Source: Vibrio sp. SCSIO 43136
Lineage (GTDB): Bacteria > Pseudomonadota > Gammaproteobacteria > Enterobacterales > Vibrionaceae
Direction of reading: 5' to 3'
NCBI RefSeq assembly: GCF_023716565.1
Contig: NZ_CP071848.1
Span: 992,001 to 1,056,000, forward strand
DNA length: 64,000 bases
Program-made: the position numbers and the translations under genes
Notes under the pieces: generated by a model
What the model was told of the DNA's origin: nothing
What the model saw: only the letters and a program-made list of their open reading frames with translations
The model's database searches: none
Part shown: positions 11,510 to 53,884 of the stretch, one piece after another
How positions within the stretch are numbered: position 1 is the first letter of the stretch
Layout of the letters: every line of letters begins with the position of its first letter

Positions 11510-14500
11510 ATGGTTGAGATGAATATTGAGGGGTACTCTGAGCTGGTAGAGATCTACACGGGGGCTCATAGTAAAGTTTTTAGGGCAAAAAGAGATAAAG
11601 ATAACTTATGTGTGGCGCTCAAATGTCCAACAGGTGAGTTTCCTGATCCTAGGCAGCTTTCGGCGTTAAAGCGCGAATATCAGATCATGAGCGCTATCGA
11701 AGGTGATGGTAGAGGCGTTCCAACTCAGATCGAGTTTATTGAACTCAAAAACTCCGCAGTCTTAGTACGTGAGTGGGTCGAAGGCATCTCATTGCGAGAA
11801 TACCTAGATACGCATCATTTATCCCTACAATCCTCACTGACCATTGGTATTGCCATTGCGCAGCTTTTAAGTGCGGTTCATCGCCAAAGTTATTGTCATC
11901 GAGACATCTCTCCGGGCAACATCATATTCAATCCCGAAACGCAGCAAGTCTCGTTGCTTGATTTTGGTTCTTCGTTGGAGTTTCCTGACCGAGCAAGAGG
12001 GGTCATCAAGCCAAACTTCATCGAAGGCTCGATACCCTATATGTCACCAGAGCAAACTGGGCGAATGAATCGAGGGCTTGATTATCGAACTGATTTCTAC
12101 TCTTTTGGGGTCCTACTATACGAGCTGTTTACGGGGCAACTCCCCTTTGAAACCAAAGATACCAACGAACTTATCTATAGCCACATTGCCCTCGAACCTA
12201 CCGCTCCTGATGAAATCTCTCCAATGGTGCCTAAAGCACTAGCCCGTATTGTTCTTAAACTCCTGAGTAAAAAACCAGATAACCGCTACCAAAGTGCCGA
12301 GGGCGTTGAAGCTGATCTGTCACAATGTTTGGCTGCTTGGACTAAGTTTGGAGCCATTGAGCCGTTTGAACTCGCCTCAGCAGAACTAAATAGCAGTTTA
12401 AGGATACCTGAAACCATCTATGGTAGAGAGCAGGAAACTGAGCGTTTGCTCGATGCCTTTGCCCAAACAAGTCAGGGTAATGGTCATCTGGTCTTTGTTG
12501 CTGGCCACTCAGGGATAGGCAAAACATCGCTAGTGAGAGAGCTGTATCGACCACTAACAGCCCAAGGTGGCTACATCACCAGTGGTAAATACGATCAACT
12601 GCTGCGCCATCAGCCTTATTCGGCAATTTTGCAGGCGGTATCAGGACTGTTTCGTCAGATCATTTCAGAAAGTCATGACAGTGTGACTTTCTGGCAGCAA
12701 GCGCTGCAACAGGCGGTGGGTGGAAATGGCCAAGTGCTGATCGATGTAATCCCTGAGTTGGAATTGCTGATTGGTCCACAGCCACAAGTCATGCCGCTAT
12801 CGGCAGAAGCCGCATCAACACGTTTTAACACCACTTTCTTTAACTTGATTCATGCACTGGGCACCACTGGAAAGCCAATCGTGTTGTTTATTGATGATCT
12901 TCAGTGGATAGATCCTGCAAGTTTGACCTTGTTGGAGGCTGTGACCGCCCAACTAAGTCAGTCTACGCTAATGATCATTGGTGCTTATCGCGACAATGAA
13001 GTTTTAGAGCACCATCCGTTAATGATTGCTATGCCGACGCTTCAAGGCAATTGCACCAATACTGTGGTAGTGGAACTGAGCGAGCTACCAAAAGATACTT
13101 TAATAGATTTGCTCAAAGACAGTGTCGTACTGTCACCGTCCGAGTATGAACAGCTAAACGCCACATTATGTGACAAAACAGGTGGCAACCCTCTGATCTA
13201 TAAAACAATGCTAACCACGCTTTATACACAACAACTGCTCAGTTTCGATTACGAGAGTAAGCGTTGGGTTTGGGATCAAAAAGCGCTTAATCTGATGCCA
13301 AGGGCCGAAAACTCCGTAGCTATGTTGCAAAGCAATATGAGTGGTCTTGACACCCAGACATTGGAGCTATTGAAGTTAGCGGGCTGCATTGGTAATACCT
13401 TTAGCCTGGACTTGTTAACGGCTTTATCGAACCACGGGCGCTCTGAGCTTGCCAAGTCTCTTATTCCAGCGGTATCAAAAGGGTATATCCAGCCTTTAGA
13501 TGATGACTTTGAGCTATACACCACCGACGGTTATGACAAGTTACCAGATACTCAATTTATTTTTGTTCACGATAGAATTCAGCAAGCGGCGTATAGCTTG
13601 CTCTCCTCAGAAGAGCAGGAAAAGTTGCATTGGGCTATCGGGCAAAAGCTGCTTTCTAAACAGACTGATGAGCCTTCAGAGCGGGTGCTGTTTGATGCGG
13701 TAGAACACCAAAATCAGGGCTACCGATATGCCACTAGTGAAGAAAAATCGCTCTTGGTCAAACTTAACTTAATGGCAGGAAAGAGAGCTAAGCGCTCTGC
13801 AGCTTTTAGTGTTGCTCATTCGTGTTTAAGTCATGCCAAAACCATTTTGCAACAGCTTGGCGACGCTACAAACAGTGATCTGTCGGTGACGATTGATTTG
13901 GAGTTAGCGCAGGCTTGCTATTTAGTCTCTGAGTTTGACGCAGCAGAGGCGCTTTACAGTGATCTTCGAAGCCGAGATATTTCTGATCAAGAGAAGCTCA
14001 ATCTATACAATATTCAGGCGAAGCAATACCACCACCAAGGCGCGTATCAACGCTCACTGGAGTATGAATACGAAGCCTTGCAGTTACTGGGAATAGAGCT
14101 GCCAGAAGACGATGAATCACTTATGGCTCTGTTTGGCGAAGAGCAGAATAAAATTGAGAAATTGCTTGAGCAAACGGACCACCAACGCTTGCTCCACCAA
14201 GCCAATATTGAGGATGAGTGTTTTAGCCTAACTCACGAGCTTTTATTTGATGCATTCACCGATGGTTACCTATTAGGTAAGGGGCCGCTATTGGCAGTGG
14301 TTGCCGCAACCAGCGCTCGACTATCTATGGAGCGGGGCAACTGCGCCGCAAGCTCAGCCGGATACATCAACTATGCCACCATACTTTGCTCTAGCGGTAA
14401 CTACCGACAGGGGCACGAGATTGGTCAGTTAGCGATCAAACTGGCGGATAAATATCAAAACCCAGTGTTTAAAAACTACACCTATCATGTGTTTTCTCTT

Positions 14501-16567
14501 GGTATTAATCACTGGTTGGAGCCTTTAAAAAGCAGTTACGATTATTGGCACGAAGCGTCCAAGTTATCGATGGAATCGGGCTCGCCGTATGCTGGCTGGG
14601 TGTTTTTGCAAATGCCGCACGTCTTGCTTGCGTCGGGAGCAAGTCTTGAACAAGTACAAGCGCAGGCAGATAGCAGCTTAGACTATTTGACCGGTAATCG
14701 TCTCGGGGATATTGCCCAACTTCTTCAACTGATAGTTTTGCAGCCTCTAAGGCACCTCAAAGGCGAGACGCCAAGCTTCTCTTCGATTGACGGTGAGTTG
14801 TTCTGTACCGAGCAGTTACTGACAGATTATCAAGAAGCTCCATTCTTCTTCGGCCATACGGCCTATTCCGTATTGCGCGCTTCTTTGTTGGCTCGCGACA
14901 TTTTACCTGCCACTACGCTCAAAGCTTGGTTGCCAATCATTGAAAACACGGTACAGGCGCAGATCATCCAAGTTGATAGTTGTTTTTATACTGGCTTGCA
15001 CCTAACGGCGGGCTGCACCGAACTCAGTGGCAAAGAACGAGACAAACAGTTGGCTTGGGTAGAGAGTTTAGTCGATAAATTTAAGGTTTGGTCCGAGCTT
15101 TGTCCGGGCAACTTTGCACACAAATCGTTATTGCTTCAAGCCGAAGTTAAGCGTTTAGAAGGCGATGTACTTGGCGCTTTTGATCTGTATGAACTTTCAA
15201 GAGAAGCCGCATTGGAATCACGCTTCTTAATGGATGCAGCGCTGGCTGATGAGTTGGCTGGACTGTTTTGGTCGCAAGCAGGCAAGCCTTATCAGGCGCA
15301 GCACTATCTGCAACGTTCACTGGAAGGATATGAGCAGTGGGGAGCCAGCGGAAAGGTGGCAGCACTTGTAGAGCAGTATCCAGAACTTGAGGCGAGTCAT
15401 GTCAGTTCTGGTGTAAACATTAGCTCGACGATAGATTCTACGGTCAATACGGATGATTTTTCATCTATTCTCGATATGAGCTCAGTGGTTAAAGCGTCAC
15501 AGGCCGTTTCCCAGCACATGCAAATGGATAAATTGGCCGAAGAGCTTTTGAATTTAGCGGTTGAAAATGCGGGTGCAACCCGCGGTTTGCTATTACTGGA
15601 AAATGGTGGAGATTTCTTCGTAACCCAGAAGGTTACGGCAGAAAATGACACCAATGATACCGAAGGGCTGGATAAGCCGTATGCCGAATCTGCCTGCTTA
15701 TCTCGCACGATTGTGCGCTACGTGATCAATTCAGGCCAACCGGTCGTCTATACCCCAACAGAGCACGATGAGCAGTTCGAGCGCTGTAATTATCTTCGTC
15801 AGCAGGGGGATATTTCGGTGCTGTGTGTACCTATTATTCGTCAAGGCACTATGTCAGGTGTGCTTTATCTTGAGAATACTCATCTAGCTGAGGCATTTCA
15901 GGCTGACCGAGTGCAAACTCTGAAAATTATCGCATCTCAAGCCGCAATCTCACTCGAAAATGCACGAATGTATCGCGATCTTGAAGAGATGAATAACAAC
16001 CTCGAAGAGCTAGTTAAAGAGCGAACCAAAAAGCTCTATGAAGCCAATCAGCAGCTCACAGATACCAACCAAACCTTGTACACATTGTCGACCACTGACC
16101 AATTAACCGGGTTATATAATCGCCGTTTCGTTGAAGAACAGCTGCATAACTTGCTGGAAAGTGATCCTCAAAGTCGTCACCCAGTCTCGCTATTAATGCT
16201 GGATGTGGACCACTTTAAATCTGTGAATGACAACTATGGCCACAATACTGGCGACAGGGTGTTAGTTAACGTATCGGCTTCTATAAAGGCATCGATTCGC
16301 AGTGTAGACATGGCAGGGCGCTGGGGCGGAGAGGAGTTCATTGTGCTGTGTATGAGTGATATTGACGGTGCGACGACCAGTGCTAAGAAACTTGGCCAAC
16401 AAATCGCGAAACAAGACAACTCCCCCGTTGAACAGGTCACCGTTAGTATTGGCGTTACGCCGGTACTAAACAAAGACACCATTGACTCGGTGCTAAACCG
16501 TGTCGATCAGGCGTTGTACAGCGCTAAGAACAGCGGCCGAAATCAAGTGATGATTAAGCTGAAATAA
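11510..16567 (+). CDS. Ser/Thr protein kinase-ATPase-GAF-diguanylate cyclase hybrid
   Basis: A 1685-residue signalling protein. Residues about 8-270 are a eukaryotic-type kinase with VALK, the catalytic HRD (Asp132, HRDISPGNI) and DFG. Residues about 300-700 are a STAND/AAA-type ATPase with Walker A GHSGIGKTS (332-340) and an LFIDDLQWID Walker B. Residues about 700-1290 are helical, TPR-like. A GAF domain (about 1316-1482) and a coiled coil lead to a GGDEF domain whose GGEEF signature (1606-1610) is intact, so it should make cyclic di-GMP. The first three parts match the HstK-type kinases of cyanobacteria and proteobacteria, which normally end in a histidine kinase; here a cyclase replaces it. 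No membrane span is visible. Starts at 11510 and 11519 both have ribosome sites. The triple-fusion enzyme follows after 33 bp. Confidence 0.9.
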   Translation: MVEMNIEGYSELVEIYTGAHSKVFRAKRDKDNLCVALKCPTGEFPDPRQLSALKREYQIMSAIEGDGRGVPTQIEFIELKNSAVLVREWVEGISLREYLDTHHLSLQSSLTIGIAIAQLLSAVHRQSYCHRDISPGNIIFNPETQQVSLLDFGSSLEFPDRARGVIKPNFIEGSIPYMSPEQTGRMNRGLDYRTDFYSFGVLLYELFTGQLPFETKDTNELIYSHIALEPTAPDEISPMVPKALARIVLKLLSKKPDNRYQSAEGVEADLSQCLAAWTKFGAIEPFELASAELNSSLRIPETIYGREQETERLLDAFAQTSQGNGHLVFVAGHSGIGKTSLVRELYRPLTAQGGYITSGKYDQLLRHQPYSAILQAVSGLFRQIISESHDSVTFWQQALQQAVGGNGQVLIDVIPELELLIGPQPQVMPLSAEAASTRFNTTFFNLIHALGTTGKPIVLFIDDLQWIDPASLTLLEAVTAQLSQSTLMIIGAYRDNEVLEHHPLMIAMPTLQGNCTNTVVVELSELPKDTLIDLLKDSVVLSPSEYEQLNATLCDKTGGNPLIYKTMLTTLYTQQLLSFDYESKRWVWDQKALNLMPRAENSVAMLQSNMSGLDTQTLELLKLAGCIGNTFSLDLLTALSNHGRSELAKSLIPAVSKGYIQPLDDDFELYTTDGYDKLPDTQFIFVHDRIQQAAYSLLSSEEQEKLHWAIGQKLLSKQTDEPSERVLFDAVEHQNQGYRYATSEEKSLLVKLNLMAGKRAKRSAAFSVAHSCLSHAKTILQQLGDATNSDLSVTIDLELAQACYLVSEFDAAEALYSDLRSRDISDQEKLNLYNIQAKQYHHQGAYQRSLEYEYEALQLLGIELPEDDESLMALFGEEQNKIEKLLEQTDHQRLLHQANIEDECFSLTHELLFDAFTDGYLLGKGPLLAVVAATSARLSMERGNCAASSAGYINYATILCSSGNYRQGHEIGQLAIKLADKYQNPVFKNYTYHVFSLGINHWLEPLKSSYDYWHEASKLSMESGSPYAGWVFLQMPHVLLASGASLEQVQAQADSSLDYLTGNRLGDIAQLLQLIVLQPLRHLKGETPSFSSIDGELFCTEQLLTDYQEAPFFFGHTAYSVLRASLLARDILPATTLKAWLPIIENTVQAQIIQVDSCFYTGLHLTAGCTELSGKERDKQLAWVESLVDKFKVWSELCPGNFAHKSLLLQAEVKRLEGDVLGAFDLYELSREAALESRFLMDAALADELAGLFWSQAGKPYQAQHYLQRSLEGYEQWGASGKVAALVEQYPELEASHVSSGVNISSTIDSTVNTDDFSSILDMSSVVKASQAVSQHMQMDKLAEELLNLAVENAGATRGLLLLENGGDFFVTQKVTAENDTNDTEGLDKPYAESACLSRTIVRYVINSGQPVVYTPTEHDEQFERCNYLRQQGDISVLCVPIIRQGTMSGVLYLENTHLAEAFQADRVQTLKIIASQAAISLENARMYRDLEEMNNNLEELVKERTKKLYEANQQLTDTNQTLYTLSTTDQLTGLYNRRFVEEQLHNLLESDPQSRHPVSLLMLDVDHFKSVNDNYGHNTGDRVLVNVSASIKASIRSVDMAGRWGGEEFIVLCMSDIDGATTSAKKLGQQIAKQDNSPVEQVTVSIGVTPVLNKDTIDSVLNRVDQALYSAKNSGRNQVMIKLK

Positions 16568-16600
16568 TCGAATAAGTGCAAAAGGAGTTTAGACACGCTT

Positions 16601-18799
16601 ATGTGGACCACACAACCTCGAAACAACAGCCGAAATGTTAAGAAAGCACTGCTTGTTGTGACTAGCCATACTGAGTTAGATGGCACCGATAAACATACTG
16701 GATTTTGGTTTGATGAGTTAGCCACCCCATTTTGGGGCTTTTATGATGCAGGCTATGAAGTCACAATCGCATCAATTCGAGGTGGCTTGGCAAAAGCAGA
16801 CCCGCTGAGCGCCACGGGGGAAACTGTCACCCCCGCCGTAAAACGATTCCAAGAATCTGCTTTTGCTATGGGGCAATTGGACAATACGGTTTCTGTGGTT
16901 GAGGTTGATACCAGTGCTTACACCACTCTGTTTCTATGTGGTGGACACGGAACATTGTGGGATTTTCGACAAAGCCACGGGCTAGCACGTATCGTGAGCG
17001 AGTTTTATGCCGATAAAAAGCTGATTGGCTCGGTGTGCCATGGGCCTACAGGGTTACTTTCAGCGCAAAAGCCTGATGGAACTCCTTTAGTTGCTGGGCT
17101 AAAACTGACCGCTTTTTCCGATGCAGAAGAGAAACTGACGCCTCACCAATATATCGAAGCTTTGCCGTATCATCTTGAAGACGCTCTGGTGGACAAAGGT
17201 GCTTGTTATCAGTGCGAAAAACCTAATGCGCATTTTGTTGTGAGTGAAAAAGGGTTAATCACAGGTCAAAATCCAGCCTCCGTGGATTTGGTGGTGAAAA
17301 CCATTCTTGATGCGCTAGAGAAAACCAAGGTGTGGGTGGACACTGATATCTCTATTGGTACCCAGTCTGAGTCAGGAGTGCCTTGCGATGTGGATGATGC
17401 GTATGCTCTGCTCAGTTTGTTTAATTCAACCAACGTCAAAGTGGTTGGCGTGAGTGCAGTGTTTGGCAATACCGATGTAGATACCGCTTATAAGTTGGCA
17501 AAAACAATGGCTAAGCGATTTGGTCCTGTTGCCTTGCCTGTGAAAAAAGGTGCGGCGGCTAAGCTGGACGTCAATGAAGTCAAAGAGAATAAGGCAGTGC
17601 TTGCGTTGGCAGAAGCACTTCGCAAGCAGTCTATGACGATTGTATCGATTGGCCCCGCAACCAATATAGCTACGCTTATTTTGCTTTACCCAGAGCTTGC
17701 TAAACAGATTGATCAAGTGATTTTCGTTGCTGGTCGCAGCAGCGTTAAGCAGAGTTTTGTCGTTGGCCCTAAGCAAGAGGTTCCATTTCGCGACCTCAAC
17801 TTTGATTTGGACCCAGACGCAATGAAAGTACTGATCGAAAGCTGTGTGCCTGTGGTGTTAACTCCCTTTGAGCTGGCAAATCAAGTTTGGATGACTCAAA
17901 GCGATCTACAAACACTTGGCGAGTCGAGTGGTGCAGGTAAGTATCTGAAAAAACACACTCAACCATGGTTGGAGATGTGGGAAAACAAGTTTGGCGCACA
18001 AGGCTTTAATCCATTTGATGCGCTGGCGGCAGGTTTTGTCGAGAACCCTAACAATTACCAGTGGGAGAAAGTCGCAGTCGAGTTTCCTATTGCCCCTGAT
18101 GATACTAAGGCTGGGCGATTTAGTACTGGCAACAGTTACAAACCCTACTTGGTTGCGTCGCACGAGTGCCAAAGCGCAAACACAGTGCTTATGTGTACTG
18201 GTGTTACTCCCGATTTCTGCTCTTCGCTTGTTTCTAGAATTACAACACCAAATGATCCTTCCAAGTATATTGCGGCGGTTTCACACCTGAATATTGTGGT
18301 GGATGATGTCGACAAAGCGACGGCATTTTATCAGCGCACACTAGGCTTTGAGCAAGCCTATGATGAGTCTGGTGAAATCATGGATTATCCACACCTAACG
18401 CTTGCCTCATTTGCCAAAGACGCAGGCTTTGAAGACGGCAAAGTTGATGTCGATATTCGTTTCTTACATCATCCGACTGCAGGTTTATATCTGGAGCTGA
18501 TGCGCTACTACGAGCCAATGGGTGAGCAGCGGGTGACAATCAAAAATACCAATGATATGGGTGGCATCCGTCATACCGCATTGGAAGTGAATGACATCAT
18601 GGAAGCATTCAATTACCTGAAAGACCAACCGGGGGTTGAGATCGTACGTTACCCTGATGGGCATGAGCACGATGAGGTCGCAGGGCCACCTATGTTGCTT
18701 TCGCCTTTCCCAATGTCATTTTTCTATTGGCGAGATCCATATGGCGTGCAGTGGGAAATGGAGTGTGGCCGTAAAAGAGGCTATTTAAGAGGTATTTAA
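16601..18799 (+). CDS. DJ-1/PfpI + nucleoside hydrolase + VOC triple-domain protein
   Basis: A 732-residue fusion of three enzyme folds. Residues about 14-235 are an Hsp31-like DJ-1/PfpI domain with nucleophile Cys146 and His147 (GSVCHGPTG) and a candidate Glu39 (FDELATPFW); such proteins act as glyoxalase III or deglycases. Residues about 243-545 are an inosine-uridine nucleoside hydrolase domain: the calcium-site aspartates appear as D247-T-D249 and D263-V-D265-D266, separated by a longer loop than the usual DTDxGxDD, plus SIGPATNIATL. Residues about 555-732 are a VOC/glyoxalase I-like domain (His562; LYLELMRYY; GVQWEME). No signal peptide is seen, so it is cytoplasmic. It follows the kinase-cyclase gene by 33 bp and is probably co-transcribed. 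The ribosome site AAAGGAG is rather far from ATG 16601. No known protein with this whole order comes to mind. Confidence 0.88.
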   Translation: MWTTQPRNNSRNVKKALLVVTSHTELDGTDKHTGFWFDELATPFWGFYDAGYEVTIASIRGGLAKADPLSATGETVTPAVKRFQESAFAMGQLDNTVSVVEVDTSAYTTLFLCGGHGTLWDFRQSHGLARIVSEFYADKKLIGSVCHGPTGLLSAQKPDGTPLVAGLKLTAFSDAEEKLTPHQYIEALPYHLEDALVDKGACYQCEKPNAHFVVSEKGLITGQNPASVDLVVKTILDALEKTKVWVDTDISIGTQSESGVPCDVDDAYALLSLFNSTNVKVVGVSAVFGNTDVDTAYKLAKTMAKRFGPVALPVKKGAAAKLDVNEVKENKAVLALAEALRKQSMTIVSIGPATNIATLILLYPELAKQIDQVIFVAGRSSVKQSFVVGPKQEVPFRDLNFDLDPDAMKVLIESCVPVVLTPFELANQVWMTQSDLQTLGESSGAGKYLKKHTQPWLEMWENKFGAQGFNPFDALAAGFVENPNNYQWEKVAVEFPIAPDDTKAGRFSTGNSYKPYLVASHECQSANTVLMCTGVTPDFCSSLVSRITTPNDPSKYIAAVSHLNIVVDDVDKATAFYQRTLGFEQAYDESGEIMDYPHLTLASFAKDAGFEDGKVDVDIRFLHHPTAGLYLELMRYYEPMGEQRVTIKNTNDMGGIRHTALEVNDIMEAFNYLKDQPGVEIVRYPDGHEHDEVAGPPMLLSPFPMSFFYWRDPYGVQWEMECGRKRGYLRGI

Positions 18800-18863: not shown

Positions 18864-19259
18864 ATGTTAATAAATAAATTCGCAATGCCAGTGGTTGTTG
18901 CGATGCTATTGGCGATCGCACCGATAAAAGCGAACGCCAACGATGTGTATCAAGTACAACTTTACTTCGGCTTATCGATCCCAGCCGGAGGTGTAGTCAC
19001 GTCACAGCAGTGGCAGAACTTTGTTGTTGATACCATCGAACCACAGTTTGATGGGTTCAATATAGTCGACTCGGTAGGGTATTGGAAAGCCGAGCCTGAA
19101 GATTCAAAGATAGTGACTATCATACTCAATGCTCAAGATCTTCATAAGGCTGAGGCTATTGCACAGGTCTATGCTAAGCGCTTTGATCAAGACTCAGTGA
19201 TGCTAGTAAAAACTGGGGTAGAGCAGTGGGAGTTCATCTCAGGGAGTGGGGTTCAATAG
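18864..19259 (+). CDS. DUF3574-like secreted protein
   Basis: A 131-residue protein with a signal peptide (MLINKFAMPVVVAMLLAIAPIKANA) and a mature part that looks like DUF3574: YQVQLYFGLSIPAGGVV, then a small alpha/beta fold ending in a WEFI strand. Function of the family is unknown to me. I moved the start from 18810 to ATG 18864 because a GAGGAAAAA ribosome site lies just before it and the signal peptide then begins properly. It follows the triple-fusion gene by 64 bp in the same direction and could be in the same transcript. Confidence 0.7.
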   Translation: MLINKFAMPVVVAMLLAIAPIKANANDVYQVQLYFGLSIPAGGVVTSQQWQNFVVDTIEPQFDGFNIVDSVGYWKAEPEDSKIVTIILNAQDLHKAEAIAQVYAKRFDQDSVMLVKTGVEQWEFISGSGVQ

Positions 19260-39168: not shown

Positions 39169-40926
39169 ATGAATAAACACCCCAATAGATTTTCGTTAAC
39201 CAACGTATATGGACATACGATGAAAGTTAGCTCTTTTAGCAAGATGCAGTACTTGCCCATTTTCGCCTTGGCCTTGTCGATGGTGTTTGGTGGCTACTTA
39301 TACAATCAAACCCTAGACCGCTGGTTGGGTAACTTGATCAGCCAATATATGTTTGGTCTGGTGGAGGATGTTATCTTCGACATCGAGGATAAATACATTC
39401 AGTTTGACGTCATGAATGTGGAGGGGATTGATCGTTATTTGGATACTCGTCCGCAATCTAAGTTTGGTCGTCGATTTACCTTGATCCGCAGTGATGGCAA
39501 GGTCTTAGGAGATACCAACCTAAACTTGGCAGAGATCCGAGCAACGGATGATCATAGCGACCGCCCTGAAGTCATTGCTGCGCTTGCTGGGCAAGATGGT
39601 GTTGATCAACACACCAGTTCATCCACCAATCAAGAACTGCTATACGTCGCCAAAACCGTGCCTCAAGCCGAGAGTTCTGAGTATCACTATGTGTTGCGAT
39701 TGGCGATGCCAATGACGACGCTTAACTCAATGATTAGCGATTTACAGTGGATTTTTAATGCATTGATGAGCGTTTCATTGATCACGCTGGTGTTTTTCTC
39801 TTGGTATAGTAACCGCAAGATTTTGCGTATGGTGGATCAGGAGCGTGATCAACAAGAAAGCCGAATAGTGCAGCGCACGCAAGAGATAGAGCTTTTGCAT
39901 CGACTTGCCAATATGTTGGCCGCTTGTAACAGCATTAAAGAAGCACAATCGGTAGTTGAAGATATTATTCCTCGAATTTTAGGGGACATAAACGGCAGCG
40001 TAGCGATATTGCGTGAATCAAGAAATATTCTCGAAGTGCAACTGGACTGGGGCGGCGCTTGGCCTGGGCAGCGAATTTATAGTCCTGATGATTGTTGGGC
40101 ACTGCGCAAAGGTAAACACCATCTATCTAAAGATGACTATCACCATCTACCTTGTCGGCATATGGAGGGGTGTGAACAAGATGGCGTGACATTATGTGTA
40201 CCCCTTACAGCTCACGGTAATACGATTGGTATGTTTCACCTTCATTTTGACCAAGAAAAACTGCCAGTATCGGATGAGACCAAGCAGCTCGCATTCACCA
40301 TTGCTGAGCATTTAGGTTTGGCATTGGCCAACTTGAATCTACAAGAGAAACTGCGCAATCAAGCCTTGAGTGATCCATTAACAGGTCTGTTTAATCGTCG
40401 TTACTTCGAGCAGGAGTTTGAGCAACAGTGGCTTAAAGCTCAGCAAGATCAAAGTGAACTCTCGTTGTTGATGCTCGATCTCGACCATTTCAAACGTTTT
40501 AACGATAACTTTGGTCACGATGCGGGAGATTATGTCCTCAAAGAAGTATCGAACCTGCTTACCGCACATAGCCGAGAGCTCGATTATTGCTGTCGATTAG
40601 GTGGTGAGGAGCTTGCGATCATTTGCCCTGAATGTGGTGTAGAAGAGTCTCAACAAATCGCTAATTTGATTGTTGAGCAAGTGCGTGAGCTGCATTTGGA
40701 CATGCGAGGTTTATCATTGGGGCAGCTCGGTGTTTCAATAGGTATTGCAACTTACCCAAGTATGAATCTCACCACGGATAATCTGATCAAAGAAGCGGAC
40801 AAAGCACTGTACATGGCGAAAGATCAGGGAAGAAGTCGGGCGATACATGCCCACTCAACGGAGAATAAAGTTTCCTCAATCACTAAAGCCAACCATGAGA
40901 CTTCAGAGGCTGAAACAGTTTCTTAA
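39169..40926 (+). CDS. Membrane sensor with GGDEF domain (GGEEL variant)
   Basis: A 585-residue inner membrane protein: span near residues 24-43 (YLPIFALALSMVFGGYLY), a periplasmic sensor loop, a second span near 190-210, a linker helix, a GAF-like domain (about 240-395) with cysteines in DDCWALRK and LPCRHMEGCEQDG, and a GGDEF domain (about 405-555). The signature reads GGEEL at 478-482 rather than GGEEF, so activity is uncertain. An upstream RxxD-like inhibitory site is not obvious. It may make cyclic di-GMP in response to a redox or small-molecule cue. A terminator follows. Confidence 0.85.
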   Translation: MNKHPNRFSLTNVYGHTMKVSSFSKMQYLPIFALALSMVFGGYLYNQTLDRWLGNLISQYMFGLVEDVIFDIEDKYIQFDVMNVEGIDRYLDTRPQSKFGRRFTLIRSDGKVLGDTNLNLAEIRATDDHSDRPEVIAALAGQDGVDQHTSSSTNQELLYVAKTVPQAESSEYHYVLRLAMPMTTLNSMISDLQWIFNALMSVSLITLVFFSWYSNRKILRMVDQERDQQESRIVQRTQEIELLHRLANMLAACNSIKEAQSVVEDIIPRILGDINGSVAILRESRNILEVQLDWGGAWPGQRIYSPDDCWALRKGKHHLSKDDYHHLPCRHMEGCEQDGVTLCVPLTAHGNTIGMFHLHFDQEKLPVSDETKQLAFTIAEHLGLALANLNLQEKLRNQALSDPLTGLFNRRYFEQEFEQQWLKAQQDQSELSLLMLDLDHFKRFNDNFGHDAGDYVLKEVSNLLTAHSRELDYCCRLGGEELAIICPECGVEESQQIANLIVEQVRELHLDMRGLSLGQLGVSIGIATYPSMNLTTDNLIKEADKALYMAKDQGRSRAIHAHSTENKVSSITKANHETSEAETVS

Positions 40927-52924: not shown

Positions 52925-53884
52925 TTATGAAAATAAGTGGATGCTGCCTCGCTGAAGTTTTTTTGCATCAAATAATGCAGAATCAGCGAGGTTAATGTAG
53001 CGCTCGATCGAGACAACTTCACTGGTGTGATGACACACTTTTATGCCAATAGTCACGGTTAATGTCGAGCAGACTTTAGACTCTGCGTTGGGAATTTGCA
53101 GCGCCCGAATCGCTTTGGCAAGCTCATTGGCTTGCTCAACAATGCGAGTTTCGTCCACATTGCGCATGAAGACTAAAAACTCATCCCCACCATAGCGAAA
53201 AGCGATGCCACTATTCTTGCACCATAAACGAATTTGTTCTGAGACGGCTCTTAACGCTTGGTCACCTTGAAGGTGCCCATAACAGTCATTGAGTAGCTTG
53301 AAGTGGTCGATATCTATCATAAAAAATGCCCCATCTTGTTGGCTGTGATGGGTCGCATGGATAGCGGGCGGAAGCAGACTCTCTAACGCATAGCGATTAT
53401 GAAGCTGAGTGAGGTGGTCGGTATACGTCAGGTGTTCTAACTCAGCTTGGTGCTCTTCAAGCCTCATTAGTGCCCGTTTGTACTCTGAAATATTTCTAAC
53501 CGCCCATAACACCAATTGCTGCTCTTGAAGTGGAATGAGCAACGAACTGAAATATTGGACCTCTTTCGGACCATCTTCGTTTTGAAAAGCGGGAAGTGCC
53601 TTAGGGTCAAGGTCGTACTCTAACTCGGTGTAACGGTTTTCATCTAACACTTGATTGATGACTTCGATAAACCACTTAGCTTTGTCCGCTGGCAGTACGT
53701 CATATTGATGCAGGCCGATAATGCACGAAGGGTCATGGTGACGCTTTAGATCGGTTCCGCCCCAAGCTTCCACATAATATCCCTCCCGATTGAGCAAAAA
53801 CGTCGGCTCAGGCATAGATTCAAAGATTTTGTGGATTAACTCAGGGTTAGTCACTAATGCTTTTTCTAGCAAAGAGTGAGACAT
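52925..53884 (-). CDS. PAS domain diguanylate cyclase
   Basis: A 319-residue cytoplasmic protein: N-terminal PAS (about residues 15-140, FESMPEPTFLLNREGYYVEAWGG read in parts), a short coiled link, and a GGDEF domain (about 155-318) with the intact signature GGDEF at 232-236. It should make cyclic di-GMP. No I-site RxxD is visible in the usual place five residues before the signature (GIAFRYGGDEF), so product inhibition may be absent. It stands alone, no operon partner. Confidence 0.92.
   Translation of the reverse strand: MSHSLLEKALVTNPELIHKIFESMPEPTFLLNREGYYVEAWGGTDLKRHHDPSCIIGLHQYDVLPADKAKWFIEVINQVLDENRYTELEYDLDPKALPAFQNEDGPKEVQYFSSLLIPLQEQQLVLWAVRNISEYKRALMRLEEHQAELEHLTYTDHLTQLHNRYALESLLPPAIHATHHSQQDGAFFMIDIDHFKLLNDCYGHLQGDQALRAVSEQIRLWCKNSGIAFRYGGDEFLVFMRNVDETRIVEQANELAKAIRALQIPNAESKVCSTLTVTIGIKVCHHTSEVVSIERYINLADSALFDAKKLQRGSIHLFS

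Follow-up and report, generated by a model that had tools for sequence, protein, structure and literature searches.

A conserved fusion of DJ-1, nucleoside hydrolase and VOC domains encoded in Vibrio sp. SCSIO 43136

The fusion gene and its three domains

We analysed a stretch of 64,000 nucleotides from Vibrio sp. SCSIO 43136 (contig NZ_CP071848.1, positions 992,001 to 1,056,000 of the forward strand). This stretch is referred to as the window and its numbering is used throughout. It contains a gene whose single product of 732 residues joins, in this order, an Hsp31/glyoxalase-III-type DJ-1 domain, a noncanonical nucleoside hydrolase (NH) domain and a C-terminal VOC domain; we call the order DJ1-NH-VOC type I. 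The gene lies between a large gene for a kinase-GGDEF protein and a small DUF3574 gene, both described further below. The fusion gene and its parts are located as follows.

16601..18799, plus strand: DJ1-NH-VOC fusion gene, 732 residues (open reading frame and domain matches)
16637..17308, plus strand: domain 1, Hsp31/glyoxalase-III-class DJ-1/PfpI, residues 13-236
17036..17038, plus strand: DJ-1 nucleophile C146 (other key residues E39, H147, E176 and E177)
17318..18253, plus strand: domain 2, nucleoside hydrolase of the GFNPFD subfamily, residues 240-551
17339..17347, plus strand: aspartate motif of the NH, first half, DTD (residues 247-249)
17387..17398, plus strand: aspartate motif of the NH, second half, DVDD (residues 263-266), after 12 extra residues
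18017..18019, plus strand: Asp473, C-terminal calcium-ligand position of the NH, within GFNPFD
18266..18796, plus strand: domain 3, VOC, residues 556-732, metal-ligand set H562/E632/H658/E719

The fusion reading frame is genuine. The three enzyme folds that the initial annotation had recognised in one chain are no artefact, and the motifs it had listed (Cys146 of DJ-1, DTD and DVDD of the NH) are intact in the window copy, as are those of the VOC domain. The DJ-1/PfpI domain scores above its family cut-off and has a Cys-His pair with acidic partners. Its key residues E39, C146, H147, E176 and E177 are invariant in all 21 type I fusions with a scorable DJ-1 region. Against the NCBIfam equivalog for HchA glyoxalase III the domain reaches 67.8 bits, below the cut-off of 365.

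The NH domain scores above the Pfam cut-off for PF01156 and has the NH fold. The hallmarks of these enzymes are the motifs DXDXXXDD, GN and EXN, according to a review that also reports a longer spacing in some fungal enzymes (PMC10526354). The window protein has no contiguous DXDXXXDD and reads DTD-(15 residues)-DD; of its ribose motifs, GN is found at residues 289-290, and DLN stands in place of EXN at residues 398-400. Gene neighbourhoods were compared over 80 loci, five of which (L054, L083, L087, L089 and L096) had no called NH gene and are excluded from the locus counts. GFNPFD or GFIPFD occurs near the end of 71 of the 76 NH proteins of these loci, a frequency that is partly selected because the loci were found in part by searching for GFNPFD. 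In the 57 NH proteins in which the pattern can be read, DTD and DD are 10-17 residues apart, compared with 3 in the canonical motif. HopQ1, an NH-like protein with an altered motif, is reported to be inactive on standard nucleosides (PMC3608555), and XopQ to bind ADP-ribose with no nucleosidase activity; XopQ and Sde_0182 show that NH-fold proteins can be inactive even when they keep the calcium site (PMC8910321). Given the longer motif spacing, the DLN motif and the inactivity of HopQ1 and XopQ, activity of the window NH on ordinary nucleosides should not be assumed.

The VOC domain consists of two modules and matches PF00903 (Glyoxalase) with 44.9 bits, against a cut-off of 20.6. H562, E632 and H658 are present in all 57 VOC-bearing rows of alignment A2, which holds type I proteins and two-domain NH-VOC proteins, and E719 in all 56 rows that reach this position. 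In a profile search, the nearest named relatives of solved structure were methylmalonyl-CoA epimerases (33 bits, E 4e-7); such a match would fit an enzyme that transfers protons on a carbonyl compound. Against the glyoxalase I model TIGR00068 the domain scores 26.2 bits, far below the cut-off of 120; for methylmalonyl-CoA epimerase (TIGR03081) the score is 26.0 bits and the cut-off 114.95.

Relatives and the two fusion architectures

Our protein search scored the 8000 candidates sharing most words, and the protein counts are lower bounds. Among the 60 proteins matched, at least 23 have the type I order (P0001-P0023, P0001 being the window protein). Their hosts are Vibrio, Motilimonas, Psychromonas, metagenome-assembled genomes (MAGs) of Desulfobacterales and other sources, and three of the proteins (P0006, P0016 and P0022) are truncated. 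The domain order is therefore not confined to one genome: there are at least 22 further type I proteins, and these are 60-82% identical to the window protein. Of the remaining 37 matches, 34 (P0024-P0057) contain NH and VOC without DJ-1 and are mostly about 490 residues long; this two-domain form is commoner than type I. Across 227 Vibrio genomes, type I was found in 2, NH-VOC in 11 and a VOC match alone in 1 (G203). Searches centred on Desulfobacterales at the level of the phylum (395 genomes) and the order (389 genomes) gave matches in 1 and 4 genomes, respectively, probably all of them found earlier.

Through the VOC match in G203 we found another fusion, with the order NH-DJ1-VOC (type II) and a length of about 747 residues, 38 examples of which were aligned; P0098 and P0111 were excluded from alignment A3. 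Named hosts of type II are Vibrio nigripulchritudo, Psychromonas ingrahamii, Psychrilyobacter, Pseudomonas syringae and a Clostridia MAG. The predicted structure of type II has a mean predicted local distance difference test score of 80.5, with values of about 60-75 in the VOC part. Three type II proteins (P0112-P0114) have about 900 residues, long N-terminal extensions and a long branch; our guess is that they are possibly eukaryotic.

Comparison of the window protein with type II P0061 by BLASTP gave 46% identity over 172 residues for the VOC domains (E 7e-50), 25% identity for the NH domains (E 8e-8) and no significant match between the DJ-1 domains (best E 3.1). The type II DJ-1 domain belongs to a different class and occupies a different position in the chain; its nearest relatives are FtrA-type regulators, at 41 bits and far below the cut-off. 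A tree of 106 VOC rows places type II in one clade (support 100/100). The type I rows share a clade of 24 rows (100/98) with P0024 and P0025, two proteins only as long as NH-VOC proteins (P0025 is labelled partial at source). Since the VOC domains are related and the DJ-1 domains are differently placed and without significant similarity, DJ-1 probably joined NH and VOC twice, independently. A split form also exists: locus L039 encodes an NH-VOC protein, then a kinase-GGDEF protein of the same cluster as the window's (39% identity) and then a separate DJ-1 protein with 29% identity to the DJ-1 domain of the window (E 1e-35). The functional tie between the three families that the initial annotation had proposed is thus upheld, as they are joined in two architectures and encoded by neighbouring genes in a third arrangement.

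The three domains of type I differ in their conservation. Mean pairwise identity over 21 rows is 0.78 for VOC, the most conserved domain, 0.71 for DJ-1 and 0.60 for NH, which changes fastest. Ten of the 25 type I rows, a tally that includes P0024 and P0025, differ at one or more of the NH calcium/ribose residues D249, D265, D266 and D473; Asp473 is changed in nine rows and D249 in seven, to Asn. A tree of 20 full-length proteins requires three state changes, possibly one gain and two losses, and the NH change is therefore not one single event. These residues are intact in 30 of 32 NH-VOC rows; of the other two, one carries D266G and the second is a partial sequence. In the 38 type II rows, D20, E195, N197 and D280 of the NH are invariant, as are Cys479 of DJ-1 and H600, E668, H694 and E745 of the VOC domain. 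Given that NH residues have changed while the fusion persists, the fusion is not everywhere dependent on a working hydrolase. P0014 and P0024, both on a contig of 48,780 bases, seemingly come from one Desulfobacteraceae MAG, the former a type I protein that has lost Asp473 and the latter a shorter NH-VOC protein with an intact NH.

The gene neighbourhood and hints to the substrate

The fusion gene is flanked on the same strand by the following features.

11510..16567, plus strand: upstream gene, 1685 residues, protein kinase-AAA-GAF-GGDEF, with GGEEF and RSVD present
16583..16587, plus strand: AGGAG, a possible ribosome-binding site 13 nt 5' of the ATG (sequence reading)
18864..19259, plus strand: downstream gene, DUF3574; the start is a chosen internal ATG, the longest open reading frame running from 18810

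The gap between the upstream gene and the fusion is 33 bp. A scan for promoters and terminators returned about as many candidates as shuffled sequence. In all six type I loci, the window included, the kinase-AAA-GAF-GGDEF gene lies directly upstream of the fusion and a DUF3574 gene is present, and the type I gene order is kept in two loci in which the NH is changed (L028, from Motilimonas eburnea, and L031). In two Desulfobacterales loci an MTA/SAH (5'-methylthioadenosine/S-adenosylhomocysteine) nucleosidase-like gene precedes the DUF3574 gene: in L030 (11241-11975) it stands between fusion and DUF3574, and in L032 (1456-2193) the fusion itself is cut by the contig edge. A search of the 227 Vibrio genomes that scored two candidates in each found close orthologues of the kinase-GGDEF gene (at least 56% identity) in 2, the same two that have type I, and four more gave matches at 29-32% identity. 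To judge by its hydrophobic N-terminus, inspected by eye, the DUF3574 protein looks exported. Its best match among solved structures has an E value of 0.063, to unrelated proteins, and the sole match in a literature search for DUF3574 concerns plant SET proteins.

In 13 of the 15 NH-VOC loci, the two-domain gene follows genes for a small CxxCH protein and a GGDEF protein; clustering identified 12 of these, and L041 was added separately for its GGDEF gene. Counting any GGDEF gene, 14 of the 15 loci adjoin one, including L039 with its kinase-GGDEF gene; the fifteenth, L047, is a short contig without one. The GGEEF motif is found in all seven kinase proteins and in 13 of 14 proteins of the GGDEF cluster, the fourteenth being the product of window positions 39169-40926, which reads GGEEL. 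That gene is one of two further GGDEF genes in the window, the other lying at 52925-53884. The CxxCH protein (cluster c8, about 175 residues, in L033-L046 except L039 and in L104) looks exported by its N-terminus; its heme-type motif is present in 14 of 14 members, its gene precedes the GGDEF and NH genes, and Pfam gave no match for the two members tested.

One Vibrio type II locus (L127:1698-8874) encodes a protein 95% identical to that of V. nigripulchritudo. Its neighbours are YcaO, TfuA and choloylglycine-hydrolase-like genes, which apparently make up a cluster for a peptide natural product; a literature search for YcaO/TfuA in V. nigripulchritudo gave no match. A mobile-element origin was set aside: none of the 824 plasmid records that match the fusion in part covers 80% of it, and no plasmid record matches type II at 1e-40. 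We also set aside a role in anti-phage defence, as no PADLOC family matches the fusion at E 0.001; of the 37 PADLOC matches of the upstream gene, the 25 listed lie in or around its kinase domain.

Relatives consisting of the NH alone occur mainly in Bacteroidota and Acidobacteria and provide hints to the substrate. A methylthioribose (MTR) kinase-like gene lies beside the NH gene in 40 of 54 NH-only loci (among which L104, from Veronia, is counted despite its CxxCH and GGDEF genes), and SusC- and SusD-type genes, their names tested in two loci, are present in 39. For all seven kinase-like proteins tested, the top-scoring model is TIGR01767 (110-129 bits, cut-off 275), and the one from L059 matches in the PDB only the methylthioribose kinases 2olc and 2pyw (E 1e-15). 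The association with an MTR-kinase-like gene suggests that the product of the NH is free, possibly 5-modified, ribose. In fusion-bearing genomes, an MTA/SAH nucleosidase scores above its cut-off in 19 of the 20 searched and an MTR kinase in none. DUF3574 weakly matches S-AdoMet lyase (one of four proteins above the cut-off, 29.5 vs 28 bits), and the nucleosidase-like proteins of L030 and L032 score 62.6 and 62.9 bits, below the cut-off of 73.8. These hints favour 5'-modified adenosines as substrates, short of proof.

Radical SAM genes are present in eight of the 54 NH-only loci. The NH-only operons of L058-L063 and of similar loci have SusC/SusD-type genes, an ABC importer and the MTR-kinase-like gene, an unusual import system; its binding protein, of the PRK11622 subfamily, is YnjB-like.

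Proposed function and comparison with known systems

We infer the chemistry of the fusion, its substrate, the order of its reactions, its co-transcription with neighbouring genes and the direction of control as follows. The VOC core would be a metal-dependent isomerase or epimerase using its H/E/H/E set, most likely for a proton shift beside the carbonyl of a ribose-type sugar. Ancestrally, the NH would supply this sugar by cleaving an unusual nucleoside; in the changed copies it is probably at most a binding or structural module, the calcium/ribose residues of the window copy being intact. DJ-1 would remove a reactive aldehyde or alpha-oxoaldehyde arising en route. Finally, the fusion is probably co-transcribed with the kinase-AAA-GAF-GGDEF sensor and the apparently exported DUF3574 protein, so that it would be made on a signal tied to cyclic-di-GMP. 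A VOC-centred modular enzyme of this kind, with the NH as supplier or binder, DJ-1 as carbonyl remover and control linked to cyclic-di-GMP, is the explanation we tentatively prefer, at somewhat less than even confidence. The broader reading is more doubtful still: that the three domains form a new catalytic module, built at least twice round one VOC lineage and mostly near cyclic-di-GMP enzymes, which would process or sense a small ribose-derived molecule that the papers found here do not describe, its level coupled to the biofilm and motility messenger, and whose nucleosidase became a ligand-binding pseudoenzyme in one branch.

Several observations weigh against the VOC-centred explanation. 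The epimerase match of the VOC domain is weak (33 bits in all, with no individually significant stretch), a single-sequence search found only a generic glyoxalase-family protein (E 0.004), and the NCBIfam scores for glyoxalase I and epimerase are alike, both being far below their cut-offs. A DTD-type start is readable in 57 of the 76 NH proteins; among the 19 without one, many read D-A-D or are cut or changed. The window NH departs from the pattern of active NHs, and a retained calcium site does not guarantee activity in proteins of this fold. The other DJ-1 class of type II weakens any single role for DJ-1. Near type II there is a Cache-HD-GYP gene in two of three loci, on the same strand and about 470-700 bp away, and the third, L127, lies inside the YcaO/TfuA cluster instead. 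The link to cyclic-di-GMP may be partly due to chance, since the window genome has 78 GGDEF matches and loci of the same type are not independent; we estimate that a gene would have a GGDEF neighbour on either side by chance in about 3% of cases, assuming about one gene per kb.

The initial annotation had interpreted the fusion as a channelled route for glycated or otherwise damaged nucleosides, in which one domain removes the adduct or aldehyde and another frees the base; spelt out, DJ-1 would do the former and the NH the latter, with the VOC domain handling glyoxal. Its premises of three folds in one chain and intact motifs in the window copy are sound, the sequence of the DJ-1 domain puts it in the glyoxalase III class, and the functional tie stands; the glycated-nucleoside channel is not supported. 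An essential hydrolase step fits poorly with an NH that is changed in ten type I rows while the fusion is kept, along with the key residues of DJ-1 (21 of 21) and VOC, and since the NH has changed in several branches, a channel in which all three steps are obligatory is hard to uphold. The DJ-1 deglycase activity on which the idea draws is disputed in favour of glyoxalase activity (PMC10634309), and type II has a DJ-1 of another class. The VOC domain falls short of the glyoxalase I cut-off, and none of the annotated neighbours suggests glycation. As stated, this channel is unlikely, and we consider it very much so. We attach practically no weight to the idea that three unrelated genes were fused by chance or in assembly: all that speaks for it is how rare the architecture is, and it is refuted by the conserved relatives, of which there are at least 22, and by the gene order common to all six loci.

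A more specific form of the VOC-centred explanation has a 5'-modified nucleoside derived from S-adenosylmethionine (5'-methylthioadenosine, 5'-deoxyadenosine or an analogue) as the substrate; the NH would free a 5-modified ribose, the VOC domain isomerise it and DJ-1 take the leftover carbonyl. The MTR-kinase-like genes of NH-only loci, the nucleosidase-like genes of L030 and L032, the lyase match of DUF3574 and the presence of MTA/SAH nucleosidase without MTR kinase in fusion-bearing genomes all point this way. Set against them, the kinase-like and nucleosidase-like proteins are below their cut-offs, the hosts already own a standard MTA/SAH nucleosidase, and a cytoplasmic S-adenosylmethionine lyase role for DUF3574 is unlikely because the protein looks exported. 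We regard this version as unlikely. Slightly less credible to us is an arrangement in which DJ-1 and VOC are aldehyde handlers and the NH fold is a regulatory, non-catalytic scaffold for sensing ADP-ribose or another ribose compound. It would explain why the NH degenerates while DJ-1 and VOC are kept; signalling genes adjoin the fusion, and non-catalytic modules of the NH fold that bind ADP-ribose or sugar have been described (PMC8910321). The NH nevertheless keeps its residues in 15 of the 25 type I rows and in 30 of the 32 NH-VOC rows and is nearly invariant in type II, which weakens the scaffold idea because wider decay would be expected had catalysis never mattered. An arsenosugar pathway was set aside as highly improbable. 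Its substrate would be 5'-deoxy-5'-dimethylarsinoyl-adenosine, and it draws on glycosyltransferases whose families are named for arsenosugar biosynthesis: a TIGR04283 protein near the NH-only gene of L051 (229 bits vs 182) and an edge fragment in L059 matching TIGR04282 (100 bits, below the cut-off of 134). ArsS (TIGR04167) is, however, above its cut-off in only nine of the 45 genomes given for the 80 loci and in none of the five type I genomes, and its best score in the window genome is 37.4 bits against 300. ArsS was not named in a literature search for arsenosugars and nucleosides.

The VOC-centred modular enzyme remains our preferred, if tentative, reading. The underlying observation is stronger than first described, with three families joined in two architectures; each fold is well known, and their repeated joining points to a reaction sequence. 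To judge by the titles found for nucleoside hydrolase with VOC, PfpI or diguanylate cyclase, such a sequence is apparently undescribed; nucleoside hydrolase with PfpI returned only a secretome catalogue, and none of the papers listed by a broader search mentions nucleoside hydrolase. The relatives offer a natural test set: NHs both intact and changed occur within an identical gene order, one locus has the split form, and type II is a fusion assembled from other parts. Should the linked cyclic-di-GMP gene control the fusion, the enzyme could point to a metabolite with an input into biofilm signalling in marine bacteria.

Among known systems, the DJ-1 domain is closest to the Hsp31/HchA/Glx3 class, which it matches over its full length (1u9c, E 3e-38; 4lru, E 2e-19; yeast Hsp31, E 6e-19) and with which it shares the Glu-Cys-His-Glu residues; unlike those proteins, it is the N-terminal part of a fusion. 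The VOC domain shares its two modules and a GGxxH motif with the metal isomerases methylmalonyl-CoA epimerase and glyoxalase I, and its H/E/H/E ligand set is that of E. coli glyoxalase I; it differs from both enzymes in being fused to an NH and in scoring below both equivalog cut-offs. For the NH, the closest known relatives are the inosine-uridine NHs of PF01156 (4kpn, RihA, RihB and Crithidia IU-NH). In contrast to these, the window NH has 12 extra residues within DXDXXXDD, DLN for EXN, Phe before the last Asp and fused enzyme partners, and its type I relatives are changed in 10 of 25 rows. Set beside XopQ/HopQ1 and Sde_0182 (PMC8910321, PMC3608555), it is likewise an NH fold within a larger protein, and its aspartate motif is altered, as in HopQ1; unlike them, the window copy keeps all acidic residues and has enzyme partners.

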